Shown here: one piece after another, positions 3,894 through 60,960 of the stretch
How positions within the stretch are numbered: position 1 is the stretch's first letter
Layout: each line of letters begins with the position of its first letter
Origin: Novosphingobium beihaiense
GTDB taxonomy: Bacteria > Pseudomonadota > Alphaproteobacteria > Sphingomonadales > Sphingomonadaceae
Reading direction: 5' to 3'
DNA length: 64,000 nucleotides
NCBI RefSeq assembly: GCF_022832375.1
Contig: NZ_JALHLG010000013.1
Location: 1 to 64,000, forward strand
The notes under the pieces: model-generated
What the model was told of the DNA's origin: nothing
The model's input: the letters and a program-made list of their open reading frames with translations, nothing else
The model's database searches: none
Position numbers and translations under genes: made by a program

Positions 3894-3922
3894 GGGGCGG
3901 CCAGCGTCTTCCACGCTGCGTC

Positions 3923-3995
3923 CCGTTCGTGTCGAGCGAAGTCGAGACACGCTTGCGCCGCGCCAACGTGTCTCGACTTCGCTCGACACGAACGG
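3923..3995. repeat. Palindromic intergenic repeat, 29-bp perfect arms
   Basis: Perfect inverted repeat, arms 3923-3951 and 3967-3995, 15-nt loop, core GTCGAGCGAAGTCGAGACAC. It lies between convergent ivd and modC and may also act as a transcription stop. A second, disrupted copy is at 16159-16269. Confidence 0.9.
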
Positions 3996-4024
3996 AGAGG
4001 GGAGCGGGGATGGATATTGAAGGC

Positions 4025-15464: not shown

Positions 15465-15645
15465 CCTCTCCCTTGGGGGAGGGGGACCACCCGCAGGGTG
15501 GTGGAGGGGCACTCACGGTTTACGTGACGTTGCCCCTTTCAAACACGATTAGAGGCCTGGCGTCGCCACACGCATTCACCGTCCGGTAAAACGCCTGTGC
15601 CCCTCCACCATGCTTTGCATGGTTCCCCTCCCCGTGCCGGGGAGG
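15465..15645. repeat. Bipartite palindromic repeat (CCCTCCACCATGC type)
   Basis: Two complementary GC-rich blocks frame a spacer: 15465-15511 (CTCCC...GGTGGTGGAGGGGC) and 15597-15645 (GCCCCTCCACCATGC...GGGGAGGA). Each block also folds on itself. A close relative is at 56007-56141. It begins two bases after the trxB stop codon. Confidence 0.85.
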
Positions 15646-16158
15646 ATGGGCACGCCGCATCGCCCGCTGGCGAATGCGGGATAGCGCCGGGAAGAGGCAG
15701 GCGGCGGCGGTGCGGCCGGTGCAAAGCCGCCGGCATCGGGCGGTGTGGCCTGGATCGTGCCATTTCATCTGCGAACGGCCGGATGAGGGGCAGACCCGAA
15801 GGAAACTCACCGGCGCGGCCCTGTGGTGCGCGGGGATGGCGGGCCGGGCTCGCTCCCCTGCCGCCGGTCCCGGGGGCATACCCCCGTATTCGTCCGCGCA
15901 TCCAAATTTGCGAAAGGTGACCGGCAAATTCGCATCCGGGCACCGGCCGCGTGACGGAGGCGCCAAGGTGTCAGCTTCACACCTCCGTCCCGCCATGGCG
16001 CCGAGTGGTAATCGGCGGAGGGGTTTATAACCCATATGGTTATAATTGTCAAGGTTGATAGCCAGACCGCTATTTCCCCTTCCTCTTCAGAGGAGGGGAG
16101 CGAGACTTGGGCCTGCGCAGCAGGCCTTAGCGAGCTGGGAATATCTGCATCCCCCTTC
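15646..16158. other. Gene-free GC-rich stretch downstream of trxB
   Basis: About 510 bases without a credible gene: overlapping frames on both strands are short and Arg/Pro/Gly-rich. Local structure includes GGGGGCATACCCCC near 15870 and the AT-rich palindrome at 16025. From about 16070 there is one half of another palindrome (CCTCTTCAGAGGAGG), with its partner near 16364-16380 (CCTCTGAAGAGG). I see no tRNA or known riboswitch. Confidence 0.5.
16025..16045. promoter_or_regulatory. AT-rich palindrome TTATAACC-N5-GGTTATAA
   Basis: Perfect 8-bp arms (16025-16032, 16038-16045) around CATAT, in a sharp AT-rich island within GC-rich DNA. It looks like a dimeric repressor site or a promoter -10 region, but no gene starts within 300 bases on the minus strand or within 500 on the plus strand. 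Confidence 0.35.
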
Positions 16159-16269
16159 CGTTCGTGTCGAGCCCTTCGTCATGCTCAGGATAAACTTCGG
16201 GCTTTTAGCCCGAAGCCGAGACACATCAGCACCGGGTCAGCGTGTCTCGACTTCGCTCGACACGAACGG
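16159..16269. repeat. Palindromic repeat with a hairpin inserted in its left arm
   Basis: The right arm (16241-16269) is identical to that of the 3923-3995 repeat. The left arm starts identically (16159-16172). It is then interrupted by a block containing CTTCGGGCTTTTAGCCCGAAG, a self-complementary hairpin, before resuming CCGAGACAC. It looks like one small repeat inserted in another. Confidence 0.8.
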
Positions 16270-16383
16270 AACCGGAGCAGATTAAACCCACGATGCCTTG
16301 GTCGCAGCGGGGTAGCGGTTCACGTCTAGGCGCGGTGTGGGCGGCACGCCACCAACCCCACCTCCCTCTGAAGAGGACGGGGC

Positions 16384-18158: not shown

Positions 18159-19322
18159 CTAGCCGCGCTTGGCCTTTGCGGCAAGGCGCGATAAGCCGCG
18201 CCGCAAGCCTGTCTTGGCCAGAAACGGCCAGTTCGCGGGCGCTGCGGGGCGGAACATGTCCAGCCTGAAGCGCGGGCGGACCTGTTCCATCCAGTCGCGC
18301 TTGTAGGGATCGCCGCCGGTCCCGAAATCGACCAGATCGACGGCATCGCCATCGATCACATGGCGGAACAGCGCGGCGGTGAGCACCGATCCGGGCGAAA
18401 ACGGCTTGGCGGCCTCGCGGTGGGCGAGCTTGTGGATGAAGGCGGTGCCGCCTTCCACGGTCCACATCTGCGCCGCCACGGCCTCTCCGCCCACGCGCGC
18501 CACGCCCAGCCGCAGACGGCCTGCGCCGCCCTCGGCGCGGGCAAAGGCGCGCAGGAAATCGGGCGAGCCTTCCTCGGGCTTCCAGCTTTCGGCGTAGATA
18601 TCCTCGTAAGCGGCCCAGACGTCCTCGTCGAAATGGGTGAGCACTTGCGTTTCGACTTTGCCGGACTTGCGCTTGAGCGTGGTGCGCAGCCTGCCGGGGC
18701 GGGCGGCGATATAGGCCTCGTAACTGCGGCCTTCGACCGGGAGCACATGGTTGGTGTCGCAGGCCTCGCGCAGCACCAGCCATCCGGCGGCGCGGAAGGC
18801 CTCTGTGAGCTGTGTGGCGCTGCCGTCTTCATCGGGCACGCCGGACAGTGTTACGCGGTGGCTTTGGCGCGCCAGATCGCGGGCGAGGGCGGTCAGGAGG
18901 GCCGGTTCGCCCGCGAGGATGGGGCGGAAGCGGAAGGTGTACCAGTTGGCAAGCGCGCTCAGATGGCCAAGTCCGGAGGTGCGGGTAAAACCACCCCGTC
19001 GCCCCCGCGCAGGCGGGGCCCCCGCTTCTGGTTCCAGCGCCGAAGAAAGCGGGGCCCCCGCCTGCGCGGGGGCGACGGATGTGTTGGGGGCAAAGGCCGT
19101 GCCGGATTGCAGGGCCAGCGGCAGCACCGCCGCCTGGTCTCCCTCGCGCGCCACGGCCAGCAGCGGGGGCAGTCCGCAATGTTCCTCCAGCATCTGCCAC
19201 CAGGCCAGCCGGTCGAACGGGGCGTGCTGGCAGGCATCGGACAGGAGCCGGGCAAGCTGGCCATCCGATTGCACTTCCTTAAGATCGGAGTGATATTCGA
19301 TCTTTACCACGTTACCTGCCAT
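18159..19322 (-). CDS. GNAT/FemAB-like acyltransferase of the exosortase A cluster, with repeat insertion
   Basis: A 387-residue transferase of the BioF2-like GNAT fold (Acetyltransf_6 type). Recognisable parts are the N-terminal APFDRLAWWQMLEEHCG, ALANWYTFRFRPIL (about 124-137), SYEAYIAARPGRLRTTLKRK and the acceptor-domain segment GTAFIHKLAHREAAKPFSPG followed by VDLVDFGTGGDPYKRDWM. Residues about 82-110 are encoded by a palindromic repeat (18996-19078) inserted in frame. The ATG at 19322 is 30 bases from the divergent ligase start. A GTG four codons downstream, with AGGTAA before it, is an alternative. Role: transfer of an acyl or aminoacyl group, perhaps from the nearby ACP; this is inference. 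Confidence 0.85.
   Translation of the reverse strand: MAGNVVKIEYHSDLKEVQSDGQLARLLSDACQHAPFDRLAWWQMLEEHCGLPPLLAVAREGDQAAVLPLALQSGTAFAPNTSVAPAQAGAPLSSALEPEAGAPPARGRRGGFTRTSGLGHLSALANWYTFRFRPILAGEPALLTALARDLARQSHRVTLSGVPDEDGSATQLTEAFRAAGWLVLREACDTNHVLPVEGRSYEAYIAARPGRLRTTLKRKSGKVETQVLTHFDEDVWAAYEDIYAESWKPEEGSPDFLRAFARAEGGAGRLRLGVARVGGEAVAAQMWTVEGGTAFIHKLAHREAAKPFSPGSVLTAALFRHVIDGDAVDLVDFGTGGDPYKRDWMEQVRPRFRLDMFRPAAPANWPFLAKTGLRRGLSRLAAKAKRG
18996..19078. repeat. Palindromic repeat inside the GNAT-like coding sequence
   Basis: Inverted arms of 32 bases (18996-19027 and 19047-19078; near-identical) with a 19-base loop. It is the same family as the intergenic copies at 44309-44394 and 60874-60960. 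It is read through as Ala/Pro/Gly-rich sequence with VAPAQAGAP and PARGRRG as the two arms, and the reading frame remains open on both sides. Confidence 0.9.
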
Positions 19323-19352
19323 ACCCCCCCGAGACGGAGATTTTCCCTTACG

Positions 19353-20879
19353 ATGCGCGGCACCCTCGAAAATCCGATCCTGCCGCTCGACCATCTGGCC
19401 CTTTGCGGGGCGGATGAGGCCGATGCGCTGGTGCTGCGCGAAGGTGTGCTTAGCTACCGGGAATTAAGATCGCGTATCTCGCGCCTCGCCGCGTGGCTGG
19501 CGCGCGAAGTGCCTGAAAAGGGCGCGCGGGTGGCGAGCTGGGCAGCCAAGGGCGAGCTGACCTGTCTGATGCCGCTGGCCGCCGCGCGCGCGGGGCTGGT
19601 CCATGTGCCGGTCAATCCGCTGCTCAAGCACGCGCAAGTGGCGCATATCCTGGCCGATAGCGGCGCGGCGCTGCTGATCGGCACGCCTGCGCGCCTGCGC
19701 ACGTTGAGCCATGCGGATATTCCGGCGCAGTGCCGTCTGATCGAGGAGGTGCAGGCGCTGGCCGATGCCGCCGCGCTGGGCGGGGATATGGCGCCTTCGC
19801 AGGCCGGACCCGATGATCTGGCAGCGATCCTCTACACCAGCGGTTCAACCGGGCGGCCCAAGGGGGTGATGCTCAGCCATGCCAACATGGTGCTGGGGGC
19901 GCAAAGCGTGGCGGACTATCTCGGCCTTGCGGCTGACGACCGCACGCTGGCGGTGCTGCCGCTGTCGTTCGACTACGGCCAGAACCAGCTCTTTTCGACA
20001 TGGTATGCTGGCGGCTGCGTGGTGCCGCTGGACTATCTGGTGCCGCGTGACGTCATGAAAGCGGTGGAGCGCCATGGCATCACCACGCTGGCAGCCGTGC
20101 CGCCGCTCTGGGTGCAGATCAGCGAGTTGAACTGGCCGGACGAGACGGCGGCGAAGCTGCGGCGGCTGACCAACAGCGGCGGCGCGCTGACGGTGGATCT
20201 CGTGCGCCGCTTGCGCGCGCTGTTCCCGCAGGCGCGGCTTTTCGCGATGTACGGCCTTACCGAGGCGTTCCGTTCGACTTATCTCGACCCGGCGCTGATC
20301 GATACCCACCCGACGTCGATGGGTAAGGCTGTTCCCCATGCAGAAGTGCTTGTTATCAATGATATGGGTGACATTGCTCAGGACGGGGAAGAAGGCGAGC
20401 TGGTCCATTGCGGGCCGCTTGTCGCGCAAGGGTACTGGCGCGATCCGCAGCGCACGGCGGAGCGTTACAGGCCCGCGCCGGAGGCTTCCGTCTATGGCGG
20501 CATGGCGGTGTGGTCTGGAGACCGGGTGCGGCGCGATGCGGATGGGCTGCTCTATTTCGCCGGGCGGCGCGATGCGATGATCAAGAGCGCGGGCAACCGC
20601 ATCAGCCCGCAGGAGATCGAGGACGCCGCGCTGGCGACGGGCCTTGTCGCCGAAGCGGTGGCGCTGGGTGTGCCTGACGAACGTCTCGGGCAGGCGGTCC
20701 ACCTGATCGCGCGGCCCGCGCCGGGTATTTCAGATGCAGAGGAAGAACTGCCACGTAAGCTTATGCAGGAATTGCCGAATTTCATGCAGCCCCGGGTCAT
20801 TCACTGGCGCGATGCGATGCCGGTGGGCCCCAATGGCAAGATCGACCGCACCGGCCTTCAGGCGGAGATTGCGGCATGA
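19353..20879 (+). CDS. Acyl-CoA ligase (AMP-forming), exosortase A system-associated
   Basis: A 508-residue ANL-superfamily ligase matching the ligase found with exosortase A clusters. P-loop ILYTSGSTGRPKGVMLSH, the YGLTEAFRSTYL region, hinge SGDRVRRDADGLLYFAGRRD, GNRISPQEIEDA and the C-terminal catalytic Lys in GPNGKIDRTG are present. It should adenylate a carboxylic or amino acid and load it on CoA or, more likely here, the ACP encoded at 17857. The start ATG 19353 fits the family N-terminus; the frame open upstream is antisense to the GNAT-like gene. It overlaps the decarboxylase by four bases (ATGA). Confidence 0.9.
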   Translation: MRGTLENPILPLDHLALCGADEADALVLREGVLSYRELRSRISRLAAWLAREVPEKGARVASWAAKGELTCLMPLAAARAGLVHVPVNPLLKHAQVAHILADSGAALLIGTPARLRTLSHADIPAQCRLIEEVQALADAAALGGDMAPSQAGPDDLAAILYTSGSTGRPKGVMLSHANMVLGAQSVADYLGLAADDRTLAVLPLSFDYGQNQLFSTWYAGGCVVPLDYLVPRDVMKAVERHGITTLAAVPPLWVQISELNWPDETAAKLRRLTNSGGALTVDLVRRLRALFPQARLFAMYGLTEAFRSTYLDPALIDTHPTSMGKAVPHAEVLVINDMGDIAQDGEEGELVHCGPLVAQGYWRDPQRTAERYRPAPEASVYGGMAVWSGDRVRRDADGLLYFAGRRDAMIKSAGNRISPQEIEDAALATGLVAEAVALGVPDERLGQAVHLIARPAPGISDAEEELPRKLMQELPNFMQPRVIHWRDAMPVGPNGKIDRTGLQAEIAA

Positions 20880-44274: not shown

Positions 44275-44308
44275 GTATGACGGAACTGAACTTCGCATCA
44301 CGATTTTC

Positions 44309-44394
44309 CGTCATCCCCGCGCAGGCGGGGATCCCGCTCTTGGCGGTATAGCGTAAGAAAAGATAGCGGGGCCCCCGCCTGCGCGGGGGCGACG
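44309..44394. repeat. Palindromic repeat of the CGTCATCCCCGCG type
   Basis: Left arm 44309-44340 and right arm 44361-44394 are complementary (CCCCGCGCAGGCGGGG and its mate). Looser outer complementarity extends into the flanks (GAACTTCGTTTCC at about 44405). It is the same family as 823-852, 18996-19078 and 60874-60960. Confidence 0.85.
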
Positions 44395-56006: not shown

Positions 56007-56141
56007 TCCTCCCCGGTACGGGGAGGGGGACCGTCCGCGAAGCGGATGGTGGAGGGGACTCTCGTACGCACGCAAGGCTGCGCATGGACGCCAATCCCCT
56101 CCACCATGCTTCGCATGGTCCCCCTCCCCCGCAGGGGGAGG
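56007..56141. repeat. Bipartite palindromic repeat (CCCTCCACCATGC type)
   Basis: Starts two bases past the phosphotransferase stop. Left block 56007-56057 (CTCCCCGGTACGGGGAGG ... GGATGGTGGAGGGG) and right block 56095-56141 (CCCCTCCACCATGCTTCGC ... GGGGGAGG) are mutually complementary. Same family as 15465-15645, in the middle of a probable operon. Confidence 0.85.
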
Positions 56142-56155
56142 ACAGGAGAGATGCC

Positions 56156-60802: not shown

Positions 60803-60873
60803 GGGGCCCTGATTGTGCCGTTTGTGCGTTTACGGCCGAATATAGTGAAAACGAAGTTCCGATCCCTATTCTT

Positions 60874-60960
60874 CGTCATCCCCGCGAAGGCGGGGATCCC
60901 GCTCTTCGTGGCGTGATCTAAGAAAAAGGGAGCGGCCCCCCTGCCTTCGCAGGGGCGGCG
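60874..60960. repeat. Palindromic repeat of the CGTCATCCCCGCG type
   Basis: CGTCATCCCCGCGAAGGCGG (from 60874) faces the right arm ending at about 60960. Outer flanks ACGAAGTTC and GAACTTCAG extend the palindrome on both sides, the same outer pattern as at 44309-44394. It separates the diguanylate cyclase from the AraC gene. Confidence 0.85.

Follow-up and report, generated by a model that had tools for sequence, protein, structure and literature searches.

An in-frame CGTC-REP insertion in an exosortase-cluster GNAT gene of Novosphingobium

Results

The window, meaning the whole 64,000-nucleotide stretch of Novosphingobium beihaiense DNA analyzed here, carries a gene for a GNAT/FemX-like protein within an exosortase A cluster (Table 1). 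The product matches PF13480 (E = 1.1e-19), its predicted fold returned FemX and aminoacyl-tRNA-dependent peptide synthases as top Foldseek hits, and profile matches identify neighboring genes as the exosortase A-associated ligase TIGR03098 and decarboxylase TIGR03099. The open frame comprises 411 aa (18159-19394, minus strand). The first ATG of this frame overlaps the divergent ligase gene, so the internal ATG at 19322 is the more likely start.

A palindromic repeat lies inside this gene. The first-pass annotation had described it as an in-frame element within an exosortase-cluster gene, and both the hairpin and the open frame bear this out. Its arms are 32 nt long and 97% complementary around a 19-nt loop; folded as RNA, the hairpin scores -82.4 kcal/mol versus -46.4 kcal/mol for shuffles (z = -9), and the repeat, read in frame on the minus strand, encodes VAPAQAGAPLSSALEPEAGAPPARGRR. 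An Rfam search with the hairpin gave sub-threshold matches only, mostly microRNA-like. The palindrome resolves into two inverted REP units, each starting with an unpaired CGTC tag, followed by an 8-bp stem (CCCCGC plus two more pairs, with one mismatch in one unit) around a 4-nt GCAG loop and by a CCC tail.

Table 1. Features of the inserted gene and of the glyS locus compared with it. Positions are those of the window unless preceded by G031 (N. naphthalenivorans NBRC 102051).
Feature	Position	Strand	Remarks
Host gene, GNAT/FemX-like (Pfam Acetyltransf_6), exosortase A cluster	18159-19322	-	387 aa if translated from the more likely start, 19322
Inserted block in full (135 bp, 45 codons)	18967-19101	-	Delimited against N. 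album, N. mangrovi, and others (DNA and protein)
Non-palindromic insert part, 29 nt	18967-18995		Repeat-proximal 14 nt fit the family flank consensus, P = 0.001
CGTC-REP head-to-head dimer (hairpin)	18996-19078		Inverted repeat 18996-19027/19047-19078
REP unit 1	18997-19026	+	CGTC tag, 8-bp stem, GCAG loop, CCC tail; GC type
REP unit 2	19048-19077	-	Layout as unit 1, GC type, opposite orientation
Non-palindromic insert part, 23 nt	19079-19101		Repeat-proximal 14 nt fit the family flank consensus, P = 0.003
glyS of N. naphthalenivorans (L275)	G031:C38:19297-21843	-	Others compared: L259-L274
tRNA-Asn-like piece in the N. naphthalenivorans glyS insert (L278)	G031:C38:20571-20597	-	

The repeat belongs to a dispersed family. 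A census of this genome, built from search hits and fetched stretches, placed CGTC-REP dimers at 32 sites in a first search and at about 34 after a second query. A full copy consists of two units (CGTC, stem, 4-nt loop, stem, tail), inverted so that the tags face outward. Other window copies had been proposed at 823, 44309, and 60874; the latter two (44308-44394 and 60873-60960) do belong to the same dimer family as the copy in the GNAT gene, but at 823 there is one short palindrome (CGTCATTCCCGTCTGCGCGGGAATGACG) and no dimer. Distribution across the genus is patchy, with dozens of dimers in two relatives (G005 and G007), more than 20 in N. naphthalenivorans NBRC 102051 (G031), and one partial match in another relative (G006). 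Among the 71 distinct dimers gathered from four genomes, which are arranged head to head and dispersed, most are of the AT/GC type, with AT in one unit, and the GNAT copy is the sole GC/GC dimer.

When flanking DNA was scored for codon phase, coding in the same phase to either side was seen at only 1 of 33 scored copies in this genome, namely, the GNAT copy; the 34th copy also lies outside genes, and the same scoring gave no in-frame intragenic copies among 57 in G005 and G007. Long frames of up to 1,043 aa span other copies, but codon scores showed these frames to be antisense or out of phase, and the copies were rejected as intragenic. A second flagged N. naphthalenivorans copy (L255) was not counted because it matches copy L052 of genome G000 and shares its antisense-like frame. 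We likewise rejected the idea that the repeat is built to be stop-free, given that 4.79 of its six frames are open versus 4.91 in shuffles of its composition.

The window holds other repeats as well. One further palindromic family (CCGTTCGTGTCGAGCGAAGTCGAGACACG...) has two copies (3920-3996 and 16211-16272), a CCCCTCCACC/GGGGAGGGGG family occurs at 15476-15646 and 56007-56142, with similar sequence in some of the glyS inserts treated below, and a perfect 34-nt inverted repeat (44036-44069/44242-44275, 172 nt between arms) sits immediately to the left of the 44308 REP dimer.

Comparison of orthologues identifies the repeat in the GNAT gene as an insertion. We located the gene in 36 same-genus genomes, nearly all of which align query residues ~1 to 98 straight onto residues ~140 to 411. 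Junction sequences came from these same-genus loci and from 59 loci in named genomes, provided that the two sides were alignable. In all of the more than 50 orthologues alignable over the junction, a short loop takes the place of the insert (N. mangrovi has AAILPLAGTSGHLSALANWYTF and N. album has AAVLPLTAQSGHPTALSNWYTF, for instance), with the sole exception of N. naphthalenivorans, whose gene carries this repeat at the identical codon, in the same frame, and with flanks and spacer homologous to those of the window copy (there the repeat sits at two contig ends, and the insert was joined through a 44-nt overlap). The first-pass annotation had named such an alignment as the way to tell an insertion from ancestral coding sequence, which would appear in orthologues as the same segment made of non-repeat DNA; the segment is absent as the insertion predicts, and in none of the orthologues does non-repeat coding DNA take its place. 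N. album may be nested between the two carriers, in which case its lack of the segment would be consistent with loss of ancestral sequence from one lineage. Even so, all other orthologues examined, from several genera, have the same short loop, so that the outgroups contradict an ancestral segment lost from most lineages, and the segment consists of a genome-wide mobile repeat with flanks typical of that repeat. We therefore regard ancestral coding sequence as an exceedingly improbable source. In two strains, PhB165 and IC081, a CGTC-REP dimer (L203 and L221) lies ~1.8 kb past a GNAT gene that is itself uninterrupted.

The empty sites also define how much was inserted, to within an ambiguity of about one base. 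Some 28 added residues had been suggested at first; the repeat itself is in frame as claimed, but the inserted block is 45 codons long and comprises 23 nt, the 83-nt repeat, and 29 nt. On each side, the 14 nt adjoining the repeat match a flank consensus derived from 84 flanks in G005 and G007 (P values are against random 14-mers of the window), as do the corresponding 14-nt flanks of the GNAT repeat in N. naphthalenivorans. Because of this match, the flanking bases most likely came in together with the repeat. A search of four genomes for a donor copy sharing the 5' flank found none.

Substitution patterns between the two carriers differ sharply inside and outside the insert. Outside it, dN/dS is 0.22 (0.089/0.412); inside, it is ~1 (0.314/0.300), a value based on 35 changes in a short segment whose palindromic arms may stay alike by gene conversion. 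The carriers also differ by a 9-nt in-frame indel within the insert. AlphaFold2 (46-sequence alignment) modeled the protein with a mean pLDDT of 88.9, placing residues 75 to 110 (pLDDT of <50) in a loop between strands 63-71 and 119-123, and the length of the loop at this site varies naturally among species. The surface loop anticipated for the insert is thus what the model predicts, in the form of a disordered loop in a confident fold. The further suggestion that the repeat adds peptide without destroying function gains support from the dN/dS of 0.22 outside the insert versus ~1 inside.

These data bear on whether the gene still works. It could be a pseudogene in the making that tolerates anything, its product being a predicted one; but a gene that died on insertion would not be expected to keep a dN/dS of 0.22 between two insert-bearing lineages, and the GNAT domain is intact with its invariant residues kept. 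Incipient decay is accordingly a very unlikely explanation. With constraint outside the insert, near neutrality inside it, and a predicted disordered loop around it, the gene is probably working, and the simplest reading of the insert is a tolerated, disordered, neutrally drifting peptide.

A second host gene provides a comparison. N. naphthalenivorans has a further in-frame CGTC-REP copy in what its sequence identifies as glyS (glycyl-tRNA synthetase beta chain), a single-copy gene there, and the repeat is read in a different frame than in the GNAT gene; it is therefore no fixed peptide module. Palindromic insertions of several repeat families follow the same VEEGIV codon of glyS in 9 of 17 genus genomes, with none in the other 8 (for some of these inserts, the inverted repeat taken by itself does not differ significantly from shuffles). 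Four genomes have a second glyS insert, in another loop. By this comparison of sequences, glyS is an insertion hotspot in Novosphingobium. Beside the CGTC-REP, the N. naphthalenivorans insert includes ~30 nt of a tRNA-Asn 3' end, matched to tRNA genes of three relatives, which suggests that donor flanking DNA was captured along with the repeat.

The glyS copy also speaks to the possibility that the GNAT insert was recruited, its peptide or its very stable mRNA hairpin tuning the enzyme or its translation and being kept by selection. The insert has persisted over a dS of ~0.4 in two lineages, its RNA hairpin is indeed very stable, and it is the one GC/GC dimer among the 71. Against this stand a dN/dS of ~1, an in-frame indel between carriers, and predicted disorder; in addition, the repeat is translated in another frame in its other host gene, and its six-frame openness does not exceed that of shuffles. 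Recruitment is, in our judgment, improbable.

Discussion

Taken together, our results make it very probable that a mobile CGTC-REP dimer with its flanks was inserted once in a common ancestor and left a working protein with a neutral 45-residue peptide. A non-autonomous dimer with flanking DNA would have entered the GNAT gene as a single 135-bp block in an ancestor common to this strain and N. naphthalenivorans. The block is a multiple of three in length, has no stops in the reading frame, and would have landed in a length-variable loop between two beta strands; for these reasons the protein could have gone on folding and working, and presumably being expressed, with an unconstrained, disordered peptide of 45 residues. 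The gene tree does not bring the two carriers together; insert-free N. album pairs weakly with N. naphthalenivorans (support, 84/76), so that either N. album lost the insert, or the gene was transferred, or the branch is wrong. The homologous flanks and spacer of the two carriers argue for one insertion followed by loss or exchange.

How the repeat moves is a related question. Its dimer architecture resembles that of REPINs, which are likewise inverted dimers of short palindromes scattered through a genome, and IS200-like Y1 transposases are present in this strain's genome. Movement by a RAYT (Y1 HUH) transposase would be compatible with the single insertion proposed above. REPINs, however, combine a GTAG tag with a linked tyrosine transposase, whereas the tag here is CGTC, and the relatives richest in dimers, G005 and G007, have no match to the Y1_Tnp profile (the Y1 type alone was searched), so that Y1 transposases do not track the repeats. 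The 2013 survey by Di Nocera et al. describes CGTC REPs as having no associated transposase (PMC3733652), and the boundaries of the insert differ from the ends of the repeat. A RAYT mover thus seems unlikely. The glyS loci raise another possibility, which we offer tentatively and think may well be wrong: palindromes of unrelated families, with bits of donor DNA, may be captured repeatedly into a few permissive loops in Novosphingobium, the GNAT insert being another product of copying of variable extent, such as template switching, rather than of an element with fixed ends. The empty site, in showing that the inserted unit exceeds the REP dimer, bears on how repeats without transposases move.

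The comparison with Rickettsia palindromic elements drawn at the outset turns out to be more than an analogy. As set out in the 2013 survey, the CGTC superfamily takes in Rickettsia RPE-4 and RPE-6, with RPE-6 equated with CGTC-1 and RPE-4 with CGTC-4, and the Neisseria dRS3 element is named as a CGTC-1 REP (PMC3733652). The CGTC-1 dimers described there share with ours the outer CGTC tag, 8-bp stem, 4-nt loop, 3-nt tail, and head-to-head arrangement, as well as a mostly intergenic location, some in-frame copies within genes, and no linked transposase, the last of which agrees with our dimer-rich relatives as far as Y1_Tnp is concerned. The GNAT copy departs from CGTC-1 in having terminal G-C pairs in both units, where the first two pairs are almost always A-T, and a CCC tail, where CCA prevails. 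The likeness to Rickettsia would then be a family tie, a kinship that rests on the layout given in that survey. Neisseria dRS3 is found mostly in large clusters, whereas the Novosphingobium dimers are dispersed.

The likeness to Rickettsia extends to the insertions themselves. RPE-4, RPE-6, and the extended eRPE-4 elements belong to the CGTC superfamily and lie in frame in genes; their insertions occupy solvent-exposed sites, exceed the palindrome, and can be shared at one site by orthologues (PMC3767692, PMC3733652). The GNAT gene likewise has an in-frame insertion while still under purifying selection, and in the predicted model the insert falls in a surface loop. Our case differs in its Novosphingobium host, in being GC rich, and in that only one intragenic copy was detected among ~34. 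The study of Rickettsia japonica that reported extended RPE-4 insertions at solvent-exposed sites left their hotspot status open (PMC3767692), and the 2013 survey records REP-bearing tRNA synthetases from two other Sphingomonadales, glyS not being named in its main text (PMC3733652). The glyS hotspot thus offers material for the question of hotspot or common origin posed for RPE-4/6/7 (PMC3767692).

The phenomenon is of a known kind, and the GNAT gene is a well-documented new case of it in Novosphingobium, supported by an empty site, a second carrier of the insert, dN/dS values, and a predicted structure. It indicates that insertion of a CGTC-REP into a chromosomal gene is possible in a free-living alphaproteobacterium and can supply what is probably a neutral peptide, which would extend the Rickettsia case beyond obligate intracellular hosts.
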